Source of the DNA: Thiogranum sp.
GTDB lineage: Bacteria; Pseudomonadota; Gammaproteobacteria; DSM-19610
DNA length: 64,000 bases
Reading direction: 5' to 3'
Assembly: GCA_030148805.1 (NCBI GenBank)
Contig: JASBSS010000026.1
Coordinates: forward strand, 186,001 to 250,000
The notes below the pieces were generated by a model. The model searched no databases. It saw nothing but the letters and a program-made list of their open reading frames with translations, and was not told where the DNA came from. Below are positions 40,444 through 48,599 of this stretch, piece after piece. The position numbers were made by a program, and so were the translations under genes. Each line of letters opens with the position of its first letter. The first letter of the stretch is position 1.

Positions 40444-41802
40444 TCACTGTCCGTCGGACAAAGGACCCGTTTGCGCCGCGCCCGGTTGCAGGCTCAATTC
40501 GAACCCCGTTTCATCCTCTCTGGCGCGGAATTGTTCGGCGATACAGAAGTCTCCCACCGCGGCCAGGGCACCGTCGCAAAACAGCAGCGGTACGCGGGCG
40601 CGCGCCCAGTGCGGCACGCGCCATTCCTGGAAGAGTTTTTTCAGTCGATGGTGTCCGCGTCGCCCGGCCGGTTGTAGGCGTTCGCCGCCGCGCCGGAAAC
40701 CGACTTCGAGCACGCCCTTGCTTGGGGCACGCAGACCTCTCCCCTGCGTCGGGACGGCGCAAAGGGTATCGCCGGTGGGAAGGGACAGCGGTTGGTGCAG
40801 ATCCCAAACCCGCCGCCACCGCGGATCCGGCTCGGCCAGCGGCGCCAGCAGATAGAGGCGCTCGTCGTAGCGGCGCAGCTGTGCGCCGGCCCAGCGCACC
40901 AGCGGATTGGCGTCCTGGCGCGCGTTCAGCAGATTGTCGATCAGCTGATCGACAATCGCCAGGGGCGGCGCGGGCAGACCGTTGCCCACGATCCAGTGGC
41001 GGAGAAGATTCCGTTGCCGCGCCCGCGAGAGCCGCCCCAGCGCGGAGCCATGCAATTGTGTCGTCCGGCCGCTGACGGCGCAGTCGGCGAGATCTAGCGC
41101 GGCCAGCGCCGTCGCCAGTTCCGCCTGATCGGCCTGTACCCGGGCCGCTCGCGCCAGCACCTGGTCGATGCCGCGCCAGCGCTCGCGGATAGCCGGCAAC
41201 AGCCGTTGGCGCAGCAGGTTGCGGTCGTAGCGGGTATCGGCGTTACTGGGGTCTTCGATCCATTGCAGCTGTTGCTCGCGCGCGTAACGTAAAATCAACG
41301 GTCTGCCCAGCGCCAGAAAGGGGCGTGCGAGTCGGCCCTGACCCAAGGGCGCGAGCTCGGGCATTGCCGCCAGCCCGTGAGCGCCGGCGCCCCGAAACAG
41401 TTGCAGCAGGAGCGTCTCGGCCTGGTCATGGCGATGCTGGGCGCTGAGCAAAACCGCCTCCGCGGGCAACCATCGGGCCAGTGCCTGGTAGCGGGCTTCA
41501 CGCGCGCGGGCTTCGGGGCTCTCCCCCGGGCGCGGGCTCGCGTCGACCCGCAGCACGCTCAGCGGTAGGCCGAGCGAGCGACAAACCCCCCCGCAGTGTT
41601 CGGTCCACTCACTCGCCTGAGCCTGCAGGCCATGGTGCACGTGCACCGCGCTGAGGCGCCAGTCGTGGTGGCGCGACAAGGCCTGCATGGCGTGCAGCAG
41701 AACATGGGAGTCGACACCGCCGCTGTAGGCGATGCAGTAGTGCGAAGCCGGTGGAAGTCGTTGCGCCAGCGCGGCGATCAACTCACTTTTCGAGGTACTC
41801 AC
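40444..41802 (-). CDS. tilS: tRNA(Ile)-lysidine synthase
   Basis: 452 residues. It puts lysine on C34 of the CAU-anticodon tRNA-Ile. The PP-loop [16 protein letters not shown] and the downstream block [18 protein letters not shown] are intact; the C-terminal TilS substrate domains follow ([18 protein letters not shown]). GTG at 41802 overlaps the accA end by 20 bases; TTG at 41781, just after the accA stop, is an alternative that removes only seven residues. Confidence 0.94.
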
Positions 41803-42742
41803 CGAAAGACATCAGGCGCTGGTAGCGGGCGGCCAGTAGTTGCTCGACGGGCTGTTCTTCGAGTTGCCGCAACTGTTCGCTCAGTCTGGCTTTAAGACGT
41901 GCGGCCATCTCGTCGGGATCCCGATGCGCGCCTCCCAACGGCTCTTCAATGATTTCATCGATCAGCTCGAGTTGTTTCAGACGGCCTGACGTGACCCCCA
42001 GAGCCTCGGCGGCCTCCGCCGCCTTGTCCGCGCTCTTCCACAAAATCGAGGCACAGCCTTCGGGCGAAATGACCGAATAGATACTGTATTCCAGCATCAG
42101 CATGCGATCACCCACGCCGATCGCCAAAGCACCGCCGGAGCCGCCCTCGCCGATCACCGTACAGATGATCGGTGTTTTCAGGCTGCTCATGAGATAGAGG
42201 TTGCGCGCGATCGCTTCGCTCTGACCACGCTCCTCGGCGTCGATACCGGGGTACGCACCGGGCGTATCGATGAAGGTGAGCACCGGGAGCCGGAAACGCT
42301 CGGCGGTTTCCAGCAAGCGCTTGGCCTTGCGGTAACCCTCGGGCCTGGGCATGCCGAAGTTGCGGTGGATTTTCTCCTTGGTATCGCGTCCCTTCTGTTG
42401 CCCGATGAGCATCACTGGACGGCCGTCGAGGCGCGCCAGTCCGCCGACCACCGCGGGATCGTCGGCGAATGCCCGATCACCATGTAACTCTTCAAAATCC
42501 GTGAATATTTTATTGAAATAATCGAGTGCGTAGGGGCGCTGGGGATGGCGTGCCAGTTGCGAGATCTGCCACGCATTGAGATTGGCGAAGATGGACTCGG
42601 TCAGCGATTGGCTCTTGGCCTGGAGACGACCGATCTCTTCGTTGATGTTGATTTCGGCGTCGTCGCCGACATAGCGCAGCTCCTCGATTTTCGCTTCGAG
42701 CTCCGCGATCGGCTGTTCAAAATCCAGAAAATTCAGGTTCAT
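41783..42742 (-). CDS. accA: Acetyl-CoA carboxylase carboxyltransferase subunit alpha
   Basis: 319 residues, identical in length to the E. coli protein. With AccD it moves carboxyl from biotin to acetyl-CoA, the first step of fatty acid synthesis. [20 protein letters not shown] and the [38 protein letters not shown] blocks are diagnostic. No Shine-Dalgarno is visible; a 9-bp inverted repeat ends 2 bases before the ATG. The gene usually follows dnaE directly, but here an accessory cassette intervenes. Confidence 0.97.
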
Positions 42743-42744
42743 GA

Positions 42745-42768
42745 CCGACAATTTTACGCAATTGTCGG
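42745..42768 (-). repeat. Perfect 9-bp inverted repeat at the accA start
   Basis: CCGACAATT and AATTGTCGG flank a 6-base centre, ending 2 bases before the accA ATG. It could be an operator for a dimeric regulator or an mRNA hairpin in the ribosome-binding region. No regulator can be named. Confidence 0.75.
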
Positions 42769-42845: not shown

Positions 42846-43526
42846 TTAGCGGCGTTTGGATGGCTTTCTGACGAAACCGGCCAGGCCCGCCAACCCCGCC
42901 CCGAACAACCACACCGCGGCGGGCAGGGGAACCGGCGAAGGCTGCGCCGGCCGGAACTCGGCCCGCACCAGCATGTCTTCGAAATCGTTGTCGTCGTTGA
43001 AGATCTGGTCATCGTACCCCAGCAGGACCTGCATCAGGGAGCCGGACTGGCTGTTCGCGTAGATGCCCAGCCCCTGCAGATTGGTGGCACTGAAGTTATC
43101 CACCGGCGTGAGCGCCTGGGCGTTGTCGCTGGTGAAGTTGAAATTCACGATCTCATTGGCCGACACCGCCAGGGTGAATCCCGCATAGCCGGAAAAGTTG
43201 AAACCTTCGTTGTGCTCCGTGAGGAAACCCTTATTGTTCCCCGACAGCGCGCTGCTCTGGGCGTTGAAGCTGTTGTTGAACCCCGACTCGGCACCGATAT
43301 AGAAGAAATCGATGAATCCGTCCTGACTGACACTCAACTGCGCGCCACTGGTCATCTGATCGAAACCCAGGCCGGTGATTTCGGCGTTGAACGAATTGTC
43401 GACAATGGGCAGGCTCTGAACCGATCCGCCCGTGACCACGAAGGCTGCCTGCGCCGTCGAGGCGGCGCCGAGCGCCAGCATGAAACTGCACGTTTTCACC
43501 CAGCTTGCTCTGTTACTTTTATACAT
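42846..43526 (-). CDS. Secreted VPLPA-CTERM sorting-domain protein
   Basis: 226 residues. An N-terminal signal peptide ends near AQA (residue 27). The mature part is low in cysteine and rich in Asn, Phe, Gly and Asp (NSFNAQSSALSGNNKGF), resembling secreted beta-rich proteins, with no enzyme motif seen. The C-terminus from residue 199 is a sorting tag: VPLPAAVWLFGAGLAGL followed by a basic end KPSKRR. This is the VPLPA variant of PEP-CTERM, cut and processed by exosortase. No exosortase lies in this window. GGAGG sits nine bases before the ATG. It probably shares a transcript with the 56-residue gene upstream and is likely controlled by the SARP-like gene. Confidence 0.85.
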   Translation of the reverse strand: MYKSNRASWVKTCSFMLALGAASTAQAAFVVTGGSVQSLPIVDNSFNAEITGLGFDQMTSGAQLSVSQDGFIDFFYIGAESGFNNSFNAQSSALSGNNKGFLTEHNEGFNFSGYAGFTLAVSANEIVNFNFTSDNAQALTPVDNFSATNLQGLGIYANSQSGSLMQVLLGYDDQIFNDDNDFEDMLVRAEFRPAQPSPVPLPAAVWLFGAGLAGLAGFVRKPSKRR

Positions 43527-43588
43527 ACTCTTCTTCCTCCAATTTTTGCTTTTATGACATGGCTGAAACTAATAGCGGTTGATCTTGT

Positions 43589-43759
43589 TCAATCTTCAAT
43601 CGGGTCCCGATCGGGGCAATCCGTGGCCAGCAGCTCAACCAATGAATTCAGGTTGGTGAAGGTGTTCTCGGTCTCCTGCTCGACCGATTCGAAGACGCCT
43701 GCCACTTTGGTCGGGTCGGCGGAATCCCGCCGGTAAATGCGCACGATATAGTTCTCCAT
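43589..43759 (-). CDS. 56-residue hypothetical protein of the VPLPA cassette
   Basis: Translated by hand: MENYIVRIYRRDSADPTKVA, then GVFESVEQETENTFTNLNSL, then VELLATDCPDRDPIED. A strong GGAGGGG lies 3 bases before the ATG. No signal peptide, membrane segment or metal motif is present; the protein is small, acidic at its end, and begins with a probable strand (NYIVRIYRR). The pattern YIVRIYRRD...G..E.V may represent a small beta-alpha domain. It lies between a SARP-like activator and the secreted protein, 34 bases or so after a predicted promoter. Family is not recognised; it could be an antisigma-like partner, chaperone or unrelated factor. Confidence 0.7.
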   Translation of the reverse strand: MENYIVRIYRRDSADPTKVAGVFESVEQETENTFTNLNSLVELLATDCPDRDPIED

Positions 43760-43799
43760 TCGCCCCTCCGAATGCTGTTTTATGTTTTTCTACGGATGC

Positions 43800-43835
43800 A
43801 CTATCTCAGGCCAGAACTTACAAACAACTTACAAA
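43800..43835 (-). promoter_or_regulatory. SARP-type direct repeats and -10 element
   Basis: Two adjacent 11-base units, GAACTTACAAA (43814-43824) and CAACTTACAAA (43825-43835) on the plus strand, differ at one base. On the minus strand they are read TTTGTAAGTTG/C. Exactly 8 bases downstream is GATAGT (43805-43800), a -10-like hexamer. SARP regulators are known to bind heptamers repeated every 11 bases, 8 bases upstream of the -10. The adjacent gene is a SARP-like protein. Confidence 0.65.
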
Positions 43836-43916
43836 ACGCCACGAAAAGACGCAGATGAAAGACAAAAGCCGCGTTTGTCAGGCGAGGCTGTCGGAGAAAA
43901 GGAAGTTGAACGCAGG

Positions 43917-43935
43917 CGACGCCAGGCTGGCGTCG
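43917..43935 (-). terminator. Hairpin after the SARP-like gene
   Basis: CGACGCCA and TGGCGTCG pair perfectly around a 3-base loop, 4 bases after the stop of the activator gene. Pyrimidine-rich sequence follows on the minus strand but no clean T-run, so termination may be partial. Confidence 0.5.
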
Positions 43936-43939
43936 GATC

Positions 43940-44788
43940 TCAGGGCTTCAGGGAGGAATAAAGCGTCTGGGTAATGGGCGAAGGCTGGATGCCGAAGTGT
44001 TGCGCCAGCAGGGTCTGGCAGCGCTGGTACGCGGTCATGGCGTCCCCATGCTGCCCGGTTTCACGGCAACAGATGATCAGCCGCTGATAGAGCGCTTCGG
44101 TCAGGGGGTCGATTTCCAGTCCGCGGCGGTAATAAGAAGCCGCGCGTTCCCAATCGCCAATTTCTTCCCAGACCCGTCCGAACCCCAGAATGTGGCGCAT
44201 CAGTTTGCTGCGCAAACGTTCGCGAAAGCTCAGCGACCAGGTGCTGGTGGTCTCGCGTTCCAGGAAGTTGCCTTGATACAGGGCCATCAGCCGTTCCCCG
44301 ACGCGCACCAGTTGGCGCACCACTTCCGGGTTGCCCGCCTGTGGCAACAGACGGTCGGCATGGTTCACCAGCCGCTCGAAGCTCCACGCGTCCACCCAGC
44401 CGAGACCGCTGTTGAGGCTGAGGCGTTGGTCGTGCAGCGTGAACAGATGCTTCACCCCGAACAGCCGGCGTAGGCGATGCAACGTGACCTCGAGATTGTT
44501 GCGCGCCAGATCGCCATCGCTGTCCGGCCACAGGGCGTGGGCCAGCATGTCGATGCCGACGTCGCGGCCGCCCAGCGCGATCAACGCCTGCAGCATTTCC
44601 ACCGGACGTCGCTGACGCGCCTGTCTGCTGTACAGGGCGTGGCCGTGCAGCTGGATGCTGAAGCGGCCCAGGGTGTAGATGCGCACCGGGAGGTCCACGC
44701 GACCCGCGTCCGGGCGCCGGCTCCAGCCGCTGATCGGTTGTTGCTGGTACTGCCGGCGAAGATGACGGCTTTCGAGATTGACACCCAT
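43940..44788 (-). CDS. SARP-like transcriptional activator (OmpR-type wHTH plus BTAD)
   Basis: 282 residues. After a basic leader, residues 35-125 form an OmpR-like winged helix with VRIYTLGRFSIQLHGH, MLAHALWPDSDGDLARNNLE and VTLHRLRRLFG. The bacterial transcriptional activator domain follows (WVDAWSFERLVNHADRLLPQ, FRERLRSKLMRHILGFGRVW, ALYQRLIICCRETG, HFGIQPSPITQTLYSSL). No receiver, ATPase or TPR extension is attached, so it is a compact SARP-like form, unusual outside Actinobacteria. It precedes its probable target cassette and has its own extended -10 promoter with a long leader. Start ATG at 44788 is taken; the domain begins about 35 residues in, so a shorter form is possible. Confidence 0.85.
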   Translation of the reverse strand: MGVNLESRHLRRQYQQQPISGWSRRPDAGRVDLPVRIYTLGRFSIQLHGHALYSRQARQRRPVEMLQALIALGGRDVGIDMLAHALWPDSDGDLARNNLEVTLHRLRRLFGVKHLFTLHDQRLSLNSGLGWVDAWSFERLVNHADRLLPQAGNPEVVRQLVRVGERLMALYQGNFLERETTSTWSLSFRERLRSKLMRHILGFGRVWEEIGDWERAASYYRRGLEIDPLTEALYQRLIICCRETGQHGDAMTAYQRCQTLLAQHFGIQPSPITQTLYSSLKP

Positions 44789-44865
44789 AACTGACGTCCC
44801 TTGGCCACAACCGGGATTGCAACCGACAACGATTCCGTTTTATTTCATGGACATCAACGAATTGC

Positions 44866-44889
44866 GAGAAAAACTTACAGCTTTTTCTC
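44866..44889 (-). repeat. Hairpin in the leader of the SARP-like gene
   Basis: GAGAAAAA and TTTTTCTC pair perfectly around an 8-base loop. On the minus strand the loop contributes to CTGTAAGTTTT, which shares TGTAAGTT with the SARP repeat. It may be an attenuator-like stem or an autoregulatory site; function is not shown. Confidence 0.5.
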
Positions 44890-44906
44890 CAGATCTCGCT
44901 GCGTCC

Positions 44907-44928
44907 GTCGACCGAGCCTCCGGTCGAC
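44907..44928 (-). repeat. GTCGACCG inverted repeat in the same leader
   Basis: GTCGACCG (44907-44914) and CGGTCGAC (44921-44928) flank a 6-base centre. It lies in the untranslated leader between the promoter and the A/T stem, and could be a structural or operator element. Confidence 0.5.
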
Positions 44929-44970
44929 CCCCCATATTTCGCATCCCATGGCGGGACGCAATTGGCGGCG

Positions 44971-44979
44971 ATTATAGCA
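44971..44979 (-). promoter_or_regulatory. Extended -10 promoter of the SARP-like gene
   Basis: The minus strand reads TGCTATAAT, a perfect extended -10. A weak TGTCAC lies 17 bases upstream. Transcription would start near 44964 and give a leader of about 175 bases before the ATG at 44788. Confidence 0.7.
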
Positions 44980-45040: not shown

Positions 45041-48000
45041 TCAGTTATAGACAAGGCGGACCTGTTCATCCCCGGCGAGTTCGCGCAGACGGGAAAGCAG
45101 CTCCTCGGTCGGGTGCACGCGCCATTGATCGCCCAGGGTGATGTGGGCACGCGCCGCGCCATTGTGGTACTGGATGCCGACGGGACAATTGCCCGGGCAA
45201 TAAGGTGTCAGGACGCTGGCCAGCGACTTGACGAAACCATTGCCGGCTTTCCCGGCGGCGACGGTGACGACCAACCGGCGGGCATAGACTTCCCTGGCCT
45301 GATCGATATCGTACAGATGATTGGCGTTCAACCGCATGGTACCGGAAAAGTCGTCGAACACGAGCGTTCCCTGCACCACCAGCACCTTGTCGTTGGCCAA
45401 CAACGCCCGGTGCTGCTCGAACACCCGGGAGAAGATGCGCATCTCCATTCGCGCGCTGCGGTCGTCCAGGGTGACGAACGCCATGCGCCCGCCGCTTTGG
45501 GTCGGGCGGGTGCGCAACTCGACCACCAGGCCGGCGACCACGACGCTTTTCTCCTTGCCCCGCTGACCGCCGGCCGCCGGTGCCTCCTCGCTCAGCTCCG
45601 CCAATGGCGCGCTGACGATATGGGAGAGCTCCTCGCGGTAGCGCTCGATCGGGTGACCGGTCAGATAGAGACCGAGCGTTTCCTTCTCGCCGGCCAGGCG
45701 CGTCTGCTCGTCCCATTCCGGCACCGCGCCGCCGTTGGCGCCGCCGGCCGCGGCCGGCGGCGTTATCACGTTGCCGAACAGATCGGTCTGGCCGGCGGCG
45801 CTGTCGCGCAGATGCTGTTCGGCGGATTTCAGCGCCTCCGGCAACTGCTGCATCAGCGACGCGCGGTTGTCGCCCAAGCCATCGAGGGCACCGGCGCGGA
45901 TCAGCGCTTCATAGACGCGGCGGGTGACCTTGCGCGAATCCACCCGCCGACAAAGATCCGCCAAGGAAGCATAGGGTCCATTCGCCAGCCGCTCACGGAT
46001 CATCACGTCGATGGCGCCTTCGCCCGCGCCTTTGATCGCCCCCAAGCCATACACCACCGTAGCGTCGCCCTCGACGGTGAACGCGTAGCCGGAGCGGTTG
46101 ATGTCCGGGGGCACCACCTCGAGTCGTAGGTGGCGGCATTCCTCGATCAGGATGACGACCTTGTCGGTGTTGTCCATGTCGGCCGACAGCACGGCGGCCA
46201 TGAACGGCGCCGGATAGTGCGCCTTCAGCCAGGCAGTCTGATAGGACACCAGGGCGTAGGCGGCCGAATGCGATTTATTGAACCCGTAGCCGGCGAACTT
46301 TTCCATCAGATCGAAAATATAGGTGGCGGTCTTCTCATCCACCCCGCGCGCGAGCGCTCCCTCGGTGAAAATCGCGCGCTGCTTGGCCATTTCGGCGGGC
46401 TTTTTCTTGCCCATGGCGCGGCGCAGCAGGTCGGCACCGCCCAGCGTATAGCCGGCCAGAACCTGGGCGATCTGCATCACCTGCTCCTGATACAGGATGA
46501 CACCGTAGGTCGGCTTCAGAATGTGCTCGATGTCCGGATGCGGATACTCGACTTTCTGCCGGCCGTGCTTGCGGTTGATGAAATCATCCACCATTCCCGA
46601 TTGCAGCGGCCCGGGACGGAACAAGGCCACCAAGGCGACGATGTCCTCGAAACAGTCGGGCTGGAGCCGTTTGATCAGGTCTTTCATGCCGCGCGACTCG
46701 AGCTGGAACACGGCGGTGGTCTGGTAGCGTTTGAGCAGCTCGAAGGCGGCGCGATCGTCGAGCGCGACGGCGCTGATATCCAGTGGCGCTTCACCCAGCT
46801 GAGCGCGCTGGGCGTTGACCGTCTGCAGGGCCCAGTCGATGACCGTGAGGGTGCGCAAGCCGAGAAAGTCGAACTTGACCAGACCGACCGCCTCGACGTC
46901 GTCCTTGTCGAACTGGCTGACGACGTTGATACCGCCCTGCTCGCAGTACACCGGGGTGAAATCGGTCAACTTGGTCGGTGAAATGACCACGCCGCCGGCG
47001 TGCTTGCCGGCGTTGCGCGACAGGCCTTCGAGCGAGCGCGCCATGTCGAGGATCGCGCGCACCTCTTCGTCCTGTTCGTACAGTTCCCGCAGCGCCTCCT
47101 CCTGCTCCAGCGCCTTGTCCAAGGTCATGCCGATCTCGAAGGGAATGAGCTTGGCGATGCGATCGACGAACCCATAGGGCTGGCCGAGCACCCGGCCCAC
47201 GTCGCGCACCACCGCCTTCGCCGCCATGGAGCCGTAGGTGATGATCTGGGAGACTTTCTCCCGGCCATAGTATTCGGCCACGTACTCGATCACGCGGTCG
47301 CGCCCTTCCATGCAGAAGTCGACGTCGAAATCGGGCATGGATACGCGCTCGGGATTGAGAAAACGCTCGAACAGCAGCTCGTATTTCAGCGGGTCCAGAT
47401 CGGTGATGGTGAGGGCATAGGCGACCAGCGAACCGGCGCCCGAACCGCGTCCCGGACCCACCGGCACGCCGTTGTTCTTGGCCCAACGGATGAAGTCGGC
47501 CACGATCAGGAAATAGCCGGGAAAACCCATCGAGATGATGACCTCGAGCTCGGTTTCCAGGCGCTCGTCGTAGGGCTTTCGTTGGCTGGCGAAATCCGCC
47601 GCGTGGGGATCGCACAGCGTGGCCAGACGCTGCTCCAGGCCCTCGCGGGCCTGGGCGCGGAAATACTCATCCATGCTGAGTCCGTCCGGCACGGGAAACT
47701 CGGGCAGATAGTTTTTGCCGAAAGTCAGCTCCAGATTGCAGCGTTTGGCGATCTCGACGCTGTTCTCCAGCGCCTCGGGCAGATCGGCGAACAGCGCCTG
47801 CATCTCCTGCGGGCTGCGCAGATACTGCTGATCGGAGTGGCGTCGCGGCCGCCGCGGGTCGTCCAGGGTGCGCCCGTCGTGGATGCACACCCGCACTTCG
47901 TGCGCCTCGAACTCCTCGGCGCGGATGAAGTGCACATCATTGGTGGCCACCAGCGGCACCCCGTGGTCGCCGGCCAGGGCCACCGCGGCGTACAGATAAT

Positions 48001-48535
48001 CCTCCTCGCCCTCGCGGCCGGTGCGCTGGACCTGCAGGTAGAAGTGATCGGGAAACAGTTGCCGCCAGAAATCCAGGCGCTGGGCGGCCAACGAGGTGTC
48101 GGCCGCCAGCAGGGCCTCGCCGACATCGCCCGCGCGGCCGCCGGACAGCGCGATCAGGCCCTCGCTGTGGCCGTGCAACCAGTCGCGCTCGATCATCGGC
48201 ACGGCGTTGTGCTGGCCTTCGAGATAACTGCGGGAAACCAGTTCGGTCAGATTGCGGTAGCCCGCGCGATCCTTGCACAACAACAACAGCCGCCAGGGCC
48301 GCGCCGGCTGTTCGGGATTGCGCAGCCACATGTCGACGCCGATGATCGGCTTGATGCCGGCGGCCATGGCGGCGCGATAGAATTTCACCATGGCGAACAG
48401 GTTGCTCTGGTCGGTCACCGCCACGGCCGGCATGCCCGCCGCGGCGACGGCCTTGACCAGGGGTTTGATGCGCACCGTGCCGTCTACCAGCGAGTACTCG
48501 GTATGCAAATGCAGGTGGACGAAGCTCGGTCGCAT
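45041..48535 (-). CDS. dnaE: DNA polymerase III subunit alpha
   Basis: 1164 residues, the normal size. It is the replicative polymerase. An N-terminal PHP domain (FVHLHLHTEYSLVDGTVRIK) is followed by the palm with GPGRGSGAGSLVAYAL and the catalytic aspartates in MPDFDVDFCMEGRDRVIEYV. The fingers and beta-binding region (YGFNKSHSAAYALVSYQTAW) and a C-terminal OB domain come after. The frame extends to 48580, but MRPSFVHLHLHTEYS at 48535 is the family start. It follows the hydrolase by 64 bases. Confidence 0.98.
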   Translation of the reverse strand: MRPSFVHLHLHTEYSLVDGTVRIKPLVKAVAAAGMPAVAVTDQSNLFAMVKFYRAAMAAGIKPIIGVDMWLRNPEQPARPWRLLLLCKDRAGYRNLTELVSRSYLEGQHNAVPMIERDWLHGHSEGLIALSGGRAGDVGEALLAADTSLAAQRLDFWRQLFPDHFYLQVQRTGREGEEDYLYAAVALAGDHGVPLVATNDVHFIRAEEFEAHEVRVCIHDGRTLDDPRRPRRHSDQQYLRSPQEMQALFADLPEALENSVEIAKRCNLELTFGKNYLPEFPVPDGLSMDEYFRAQAREGLEQRLATLCDPHAADFASQRKPYDERLETELEVIISMGFPGYFLIVADFIRWAKNNGVPVGPGRGSGAGSLVAYALTITDLDPLKYELLFERFLNPERVSMPDFDVDFCMEGRDRVIEYVAEYYGREKVSQIITYGSMAAKAVVRDVGRVLGQPYGFVDRIAKLIPFEIGMTLDKALEQEEALRELYEQDEEVRAILDMARSLEGLSRNAGKHAGGVVISPTKLTDFTPVYCEQGGINVVSQFDKDDVEAVGLVKFDFLGLRTLTVIDWALQTVNAQRAQLGEAPLDISAVALDDRAAFELLKRYQTTAVFQLESRGMKDLIKRLQPDCFEDIVALVALFRPGPLQSGMVDDFINRKHGRQKVEYPHPDIEHILKPTYGVILYQEQVMQIAQVLAGYTLGGADLLRRAMGKKKPAEMAKQRAIFTEGALARGVDEKTATYIFDLMEKFAGYGFNKSHSAAYALVSYQTAWLKAHYPAPFMAAVLSADMDNTDKVVILIEECRHLRLEVVPPDINRSGYAFTVEGDATVVYGLGAIKGAGEGAIDVMIRERLANGPYASLADLCRRVDSRKVTRRVYEALIRAGALDGLGDNRASLMQQLPEALKSAEQHLRDSAAGQTDLFGNVITPPAAAGGANGGAVPEWDEQTRLAGEKETLGLYLTGHPIERYREELSHIVSAPLAELSEEAPAAGGQRGKEKSVVVAGLVVELRTRPTQSGGRMAFVTLDDRSARMEMRIFSRVFEQHRALLANDKVLVVQGTLVFDDFSGTMRLNANHLYDIDQAREVYARRLVVTVAAGKAGNGFVKSLASVLTPYCPGNCPVGIQYHNGAARAHITLGDQWRVHPTEELLSRLRELAGDEQVRLVYN

Positions 48536-48599
48536 GACGCAAGTGTCCGCATTTGGCGCGGGGGTTTCAAGGCTTGACAAGCGGGCTTGTGGGTCGTGC

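Follow-up and report, generated by a model that had tools for sequence, protein, structure and literature searches.

SARPs are known mainly as activators of antibiotic clusters in Streptomyces, and in S. coelicolor the gene afsS adjoins afsR. To our knowledge, the sorting of VPLPA-CTERM proteins by the exosortase XrtD has no SARP or small protein attached to it in any known system, and the only other control known for exosortase substrates is that by PrsK-PrsR/RpoN and the wide effect of the Geobacter regulator GSU1771. The SARP target promoter of afsS carries two 11-bp direct repeats that overlap the spacer between the -35 and -10 elements and drives a small-protein gene (PMC10936776, PMC6988585); the AfsR box is 22 bp long and centred at -29.5, and the general rule given for SARP promoters is a repeat spacing of 11 or 22 bp, the 3′ repeat and the -10 element being separated by 8 bp (PMC10936776). 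Here we describe a locus in a 64,000-nucleotide stretch of a Thiogranum sp. contig (JASBSS010000026.1, 186,001–250,000), referred to throughout as the window, in which dnaE, a SARP-like regulator, a gene for a protein of 56 amino acids (aa), a VPLPA-CTERM gene and accA follow one another on the minus strand. This locus probably constitutes a self-contained activator-target unit, in which a dedicated SARP would activate a single operon encoding the small protein and the exported protein.

In the mechanism that we propose, SARP protomers would bind side by side, as a dimer, to a 22-bp direct-repeat box behind their own gene and would recruit RNA polymerase to a promoter that has a -10 element and lacks a good -35 element. 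This would switch on a two-gene operon, with the 56-aa protein and the VPLPA-CTERM cargo encoded on one transcript, and the cargo would be exported and then sorted by an XrtD encoded elsewhere. Computation established the genes, the selection on them and the recurrence of the set; it also established the box, the distance from there to the -10 element, the lack of a box at small genes that have no SARP beside them and its single occurrence in the genome. From these results we infer binding of the SARP to the box, activation by that binding and the shared transcript of small gene and cargo.

Recurrence of the three-gene cassette

The small protein has matches in 11 of 95 relatives, all of one family, and a SARP-type gene lies upstream on the same strand in every one of them, with a gap of 113–201 bp between the two genes in the ten loci that have a whole SARP. 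Of the 11 family genomes with the small gene, 10 combine it with the regulator and one or more PEP-CTERM genes, bearing out the recurrent adjacency on which the initial annotation had staked its proposal of an inserted cassette. In G006 the SARP is a 119-codon C-terminal piece (L065), with the small gene and a variant repeat (CGTTAGT/CGTGAGT) still present, and the PEP-CTERM-type gene lies upstream, not behind the small gene. The cassette occupies the dnaE-accA junction in G000, G014, G003 and G001 (in the last the contig ends inside accA), lies behind ppc in G002 (Pfam PEPcase) and, judged by sequence resemblance, likewise in G008, G010 and G011, and is found at other positions in G015, G017 and G006. 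A mobile-element origin was considered, given the same unit at dnaE-accA and behind ppc. As a separate observation, accA of G014 contains an in-frame TGA (L078), perhaps an assembly error.

All three cassette genes appear to be under purifying selection among the four orthologous dnaE-type loci. The ratio of nonsynonymous to synonymous substitution rates (dN/dS) was 0.04–0.22 in 17 of 18 pairs and not computable in one; by gene it was 0.04–0.20 for the SARP, 0.11–0.22 for the small gene and 0.07–0.18 for the cargo, for which one of six pairs was saturated. The cargo varies between sites, and the regulator and small gene are retained. We compared 12 cargo proteins from ten loci without their sorting tails (a third G011 cargo, whose tail pattern was missed, was left out), and at an E-value of 1e-3 only three related sets emerged, namely G000/G014/G003/G001, G002 with the first G011 cargo, and G010 with the first G015 cargo; the other four had no relative among the 12.

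The dnaE-accA junction had been described as usually uninterrupted. This holds for 7 of 26 accA loci (from 25 genomes), in which dnaE lies within 300 bp; it does not hold for the four with the cassette or the two with other DNA between dnaE and accA, in a further 11 no match to dnaE lies in the roughly 1.5 kb upstream, and the remaining two have too little upstream sequence. An empty junction of 41–149 bp in G013, G017 and G018 would suit an accidental insertion of three genes without joint function, but we regard this explanation as extremely improbable: the same gene order stands at several unrelated positions, with purifying selection and a conserved repeat, and the recurrence within the family contradicts it.

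A direct repeat between regulator and small gene

The gap between the regulator and the small gene contains a heptamer direct repeat with a period of 11 bp, TGTAAGT-TGTT-TGTAAGT, and a -10-like sequence 6 bp past the resulting 22-bp box. The initial annotation missed this repeat, which, as the likely control element, is the new result here. An alignment of the gap from nine family loci gave TGTAAGy-N4-TGTAAGy in eight of them; G003 has TGTAAGC-TATC-CGTAAGT, with a T to C change in the second unit.

We scanned the 200 bp upstream of small genes for the best 7-mer repeat at each period from 8 to 23, using the 23 small genes with a SARP no more than 2 kb upstream of them (11 from the family, 11 from a class-wide sample and one from Variovorax, L006). 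Period 11 gave a perfect repeat in 13 of the 23 and at least 6/7 matching positions in 21, compared with at most 3 and at most 10, respectively, for every other period. The mean best repeat at period 11 was 6.48, which none of 300 shuffles reached (shuffle mean 4.90, standard deviation 0.15). Family loci were perfect in 9 of 11 cases and reached 6/7 in all 11; outside the family the figures were 4/12 and 10/12, with other periods giving at most 2 and 4. At the eight small genes without an adjacent SARP there was no perfect repeat and only one at 6/7; among these eight, the contig of L126 extends only 395 bp upstream, and at L142 a BTAD gene is found at a distance of 4.4 kb.

The two most conserved positions of a -10 element are -11 and -7. 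The pattern xAxxxT lies 6 bp past the 22-bp box in 17 of 23 aligned sites, and no other offset from 18 to 45 has a count above 4. These sites comprise 21 SARP-adjacent ones, L126 and a PEP-CTERM site in G005; L133 and L137 were left out (L137 has a 6/7 repeat), and L126, L135, L140 and L006 were placed by hand. The -10-like element is 10 bp past the heptamer, and how this compares with the published 8 bp varies with the end point chosen for the repeat. The layout of repeat and -10 element thus appears to be like that published for SARP promoters, with repeats 11 bp apart and the 3′ repeat close to a putative -10, as in targets of small-type SARPs, and the box is the predicted binding site of this SARP.

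Specificity of the site and of the recognition helix

The exact motif occurs once in the 3.78 Mb genome, at the gap between regulator and small gene, and the other 17 VPLPA-hit loci of the genome contain no 14/14 match, in agreement with the earlier suggestion of control dedicated to a single target. L041/L042 (one shared site), L047 and L052 were tried as further sites and not counted, as they match at 12/14 only and 2–12 of 100 shuffles were as good. L047 (G000:C17) has, as a side observation, a weak run of three heptamer-like units with 11-bp spacing (CGTGAAT, TGTAAGT, ATTTAGT) about 110 bp before a gene for a 115-aa protein whose start resembles a signal peptide and whose end is rich in proline.

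In 13 family genomes the exact motif was found seven times, against one for the reversed control: six lie in SARP-small gene gaps. The seventh is 64 bp upstream of a VPLPA-CTERM gene (30.9 bits) in G005, a genome 79% complete in which no SARP or small gene was found. Seven other genomes gave four exact matches, three of them in G020 and the fourth in G024, compared with one for the control; none of the four has an evident PEP-CTERM gene. Separately, we noted in G020 a long BTAD gene followed after about 340 bp by an exact TGTAAG repeat (L151/L021, G020:C4:30829) on the other strand; no small gene was found there.

Heptamers with GTAAG go with H104 in the recognition helix (LHRLR) in 13 of 13 cases (ten family loci, L125, L130 and L132) and those with GTGAG go with Y in three of three (L124, L127 and L131, the first two from one family). 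Other heptamers accompany H in L135, S in L140 and R in L006; L133 and L137, both with H, were left untyped. As a lead from few lineages, base 4 of the heptamer seems to change together with the recognition-helix residue.

The direct repeat could instead be the site of another regulator of OmpR/PhoB type, the SARP being a mere neighbour that controls something else. Sites of this type are direct repeats with an 11-bp period, PhoP boxes consist of 11-nt units, and the AfsR and PhoP sites overlap at afsS (PMC6988585). We nevertheless consider another regulator improbable, given that the repeat goes with an adjacent SARP and is perfect at none of the eight small genes without one, that heptamer base 4 covaries with the SARP recognition helix, and that a single exact copy in the genome is ill-suited to a global regulator.

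Features of the locus and the regulator

The initial annotation had placed a winged helix-turn-helix (wHTH)-BTAD regulator, a 56-residue protein and a VPLPA-CTERM protein between dnaE and accA; all three open reading frames (ORFs) were confirmed on the minus strand (Table 1), and the span given for them, 42846–44979, is correct except for about 190 bp of leader. The cargo starts 65 bp past the stop of the small gene. A search of the whole window with Rfam at gathering scores gave no RNA family match.

Table 1. Coordinates of the cassette, its predicted control elements and the flanking genes in the window.
Feature	Position	Strand	Evidence
dnaE, upstream flank	45041..48580	-	Pfam DNA_pol3_alpha and others
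SARP-like transcriptional activator, wHTH + BTAD, 282 aa	43940..44788	-	PF03704 76.9 bits; AlphaFold model; dN/dS
Predicted SARP operator, 22 bp, two 11-bp direct repeats TGTAAGTTGTT-TGTAAGTTCTG	43812..43833	-	Alignment, period 11, uniqueness in genome
Predicted -10 element GATAGT, 6 bp past operator	43800..43805	-	xAxxxT offset count
Ribosome-binding site GGAGGGG of small gene	43763..43769	-	Sequence reading; GGAGG precedes the start codon at each of the four dnaE-type loci
56-aa small protein, undescribed family, MENYIVRIYRRD..G..E.V....F...L..LL	43589..43759	-	Alignment of 11 family members; dN/dS
Secreted cargo, 226 aa, VPLPA-CTERM tail	42846..43526	-	TIGR03370; N-terminus signal-peptide-like by eye
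VPLPA-CTERM sorting signal of cargo	42873..42932	-	TIGR03370
accA, downstream flank	41783..42751	-	Pfam ACCA 500 bits

The BTAD domain of the regulator, which scores 76.9 bits against a PF03704 cut-off of 22.1, as expected of a small-type SARP, extends to residue 280 of 282. The wHTH domain (PF00486) is below its cut-off (16.6 versus 26.2 bits), although alignment of the AlphaFold model supports an N-terminal DNA-binding domain of OmpR type. The model has a mean predicted local distance difference test (pLDDT) score of 75.9, with residues 1–31 below 50, and its best matches in the PDB are EmbR (2ff4) and the AfsR-afsS promoter complexes (8hvr/8k60), with template modelling (TM) scores of 0.61–0.64 by query. 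Against the AfsR SARP chains 8hvr_I/8k60_I it aligns over about 253 columns, with TM 0.63–0.64 by query and 0.70 by target, and we counted this structural likeness to promoter-bound AfsR in favour of an activator-target unit. No sensor domain was found in the short 282-aa SARP.

The closest homologues of the regulator in named records are from two metagenome-assembled genomes of Thiogranum sp., at 94% and 81% identity. With the regulator as query, 29 of the 95 relatives gave matches, at 45 places. SARP-like proteins had been called rare here, which is true only in a relative sense: 29 of the relatives match, with 28 of the 45 places lying within open frames of at least 405 codons. One of the relatives, G015, has tandem SARP genes (L062), 54% and 50% identical to that of the window, with small gene and site behind the second only.

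The small protein and its distribution outside the family

The small protein matched no family in Pfam, NCBIfam or PHROGs. Its alignment from 11 genomes, in which two GTG starts were entered as M, has 14 invariant positions besides the start. A structural model built from four sequences only (pLDDT 60, predicted TM score 0.29) has a beta-beta-alpha outline and is too weak a basis for a fold search, and a plasmid search with one relative (L125) gave no match. Searched as a profile, the protein was found in 19 of 369 genomes of a class sample, the Thiogranum genome and G008 among them, and in one of 398 genomes of a phylum sample, which was again the Thiogranum genome.

Outside the family the small gene was located at 19 places, of which 11 have a SARP no more than 2 kb upstream and eight do not. 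The initial annotation had tied the regulator and small protein to a PEP-CTERM protein; outside the family this tie loosens, since only four of the 11 SARP-adjacent places (L124, L125, L127 and L131) have a PEP-CTERM-like cargo on the same strand, with tails above the VPLPA cut-off in L124 and L127 and below it in L125 and L131. L137 has a surface protein that is rich in repeats and ends in a GlyGly-like tail, L133 has a PEP-CTERM-like gene on the opposite strand, and no cargo was recognised at L130, L132, L135, L138 and L140, of which L135 stops at a contig end. In Variovorax (L006) the small gene lies behind a gene for a BTAD protein of 1046 aa, the gap between the two contains a near-perfect 11-bp repeat, and the genes that follow resemble, by eye, membrane and RND-efflux genes. 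Some SARP homologues beside small genes elsewhere lie in long open frames, of 1047 and 1122 codons. Since the cargo outside the family is often not of PEP-CTERM type, we take the SARP-small gene pair as the core, with an exosortase cargo being the habit of the family and a minority elsewhere.

Three side observations concern these places. G281 has three small-protein genes (L134, L139 and L141), none behind a SARP; one of the three has an internal TGA and one lies directly before a VPLPA-CTERM gene (37.4 bits). At L131:881-1645 one cargo resembles a peptidyl-prolyl isomerase and ends in a PEP-CTERM-like tail. Similar-looking proteins, by eye, occur near the small gene in unrelated genomes at L128, L059 (G008) and L061 (G010), with the ends YLxIEAEEFD / YLSMEAESF.

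The small protein accompanies the regulator more than any single cargo, a point missed by the earlier reading of the locus. Because it is encoded by the first gene of the predicted SARP-driven operon and is retained when the cargo changes, we infer, less firmly, that its most likely role is to exert feedback on the SARP or to relay the action of the SARP, as AfsS does for AfsR. Tentatively, the locus may belong to an undescribed cassette spread across Gammaproteobacteria in the broad sense, consisting of a SARP with a cognate small protein from a new family, an operator between the two and an exchangeable exported-protein gene, with the small protein as a partner or feedback subunit of the SARP and a counterpart of AfsS of separate origin; we rate this as a good possibility that falls short of probable.

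The small protein might alternatively be a helper in cargo production or export, chaperone-like or as a translation-coupled leader, and not a partner of the SARP. Two of the eight SARP-free small genes (L141 and L142) do precede a VPLPA-CTERM gene and three more (L128, L129 and L134) precede a gene whose start resembles, by eye, a signal peptide, but the sequence of the small protein is constant while the cargo families are unrelated, and SARP-adjacent places such as L130 and L132 have no exported cargo on that strand. A helper role is accordingly a real possibility that we hold to be rather doubtful.

Cargo and exosortase

The C-terminal signal of the cargo scores 26.3 bits with TIGR03370 (VPLPA-CTERM), barely above the cut-off of 25.35. 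The exosortase that the initial annotation expected to be encoded elsewhere, and without which its proposal would have fallen, is present: the genome has one exosortase gene, XrtD (TIGR04152, 608 bits against a cut-off of 400), located amid polysaccharide-type genes near PrsT (379 versus 312 bits) and PrsK (763 versus 300 bits). VPLPA signals gave 18 matches in the genome, 12 of them above the cut-off, while five of 14 control genomes had matches and none above it. With 18 matches the exosortase probably serves many proteins; only the regulator looks dedicated.

The proposed co-occurrence with exosortase turned out to be weak. TIGR02602 detected an exosortase in only 3 of 11 carrier genomes (G000, G003 and G008), and PF09721, run on eight of the 11, found the same three. 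No TIGR02602 exosortase was found in G001, G002, G006, G010, G011, G014, G015 and G017, though PEP-CTERM-type proteins adjoin the SARP or small gene there, and two of these genomes, G002 and G017, have a completeness rating of 99%. The missing exosortases may reflect gaps in the draft assemblies or a sortase that escaped recognition.

Points against a dedicated activator-target unit

Several observations weigh against reading the locus as a SARP with its own dedicated target. The 11-bp repeat spacing is shared by OmpR-family regulators such as PhoB, the pairing of heptamer base and helix residue is limited by its few lineages, and the loci are related, so that the counts given above are not independent events. 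The repeat reaches only 5/7 at period 11 in L130 and L133, the latter without a clear site, and the best repeat of L140 lies elsewhere than the site used for the -10 alignment. The -10 count becomes 17/25 if L133 and L137 are taken as misses, and four of the sites were placed by hand. A search for one mismatch plus a -10 element found two sites in the genome, the second of which (L179) has no PEP-CTERM gene near it; we treated it as chance, and not as a second regulon site, because it overlaps an ORF and lies, by eye, near a porin-like gene. In G013, which is 75% complete, neither the small gene nor the site follows the SARP fragment that lies at a contig edge. Two shares tell against a simple exosortase module, namely the four in 11 for PEP-CTERM-like cargo outside the family and the three in 11 for exosortase in carrier genomes.

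Comparison with known systems

Within the open-licence PMC literature we found no paper that joins BTAD with PEP-CTERM and no title on this cassette. The nearest precedent that we found for SARP action on exosortase genes is that of Geobacter sulfurreducens GSU1771, likewise a SARP-family regulator, whose deletion alters exosortase and PEP-motif genes (PMC10599522). Unlike the regulator described here, GSU1771 has a receiver domain and affects many genes, with epsH (exosortase) up and three PEP-motif genes down in the mutant, and the consulted portion of that report describes no comparable local cassette (PMC10599522). Transcriptional control of a PEP-CTERM gene is also described for Aquincola pepA, which is RpoN-dependent with PrsK-PrsR suggested as regulators (PMC9850573), and the Thiogranum genome also has PrsK and PrsT near XrtD. 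The pepA promoter, however, is of the sigma-54 -24/-12 type (PMC9850573), in contrast to the SARP-type box and -10-like element predicted here. The locus resembles VPLPA-CTERM/XrtD sorting systems in having a cargo tail above the TIGR03370 cut-off and XrtD in the genome, and would add a local control layer for exosortase substrates. If the undescribed cassette suggested above exists as such, cells could place different surface proteins under one conserved switch, the two-part cassette of SARP and small protein.

The likeness to AfsR-AfsS extends to the size of the small protein, AfsS being a 63-aa target of AfsR (PMC6988585) and the protein here 56 aa long. Unlike AfsR, the SARP of the window has 282 aa and no NOD or TPR part, as found in large SARPs, and unlike AfsS the small protein belongs to an undescribed family and is followed by an exported cargo gene, in Gammaproteobacteria. 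The locus offers a concrete predicted SARP operator and target in this class, the target being a surface or matrix protein and not a biosynthetic cluster, together with an experimental handle on the small protein family and a pair of recognition-helix residue and DNA base for the study of SARP specificity.

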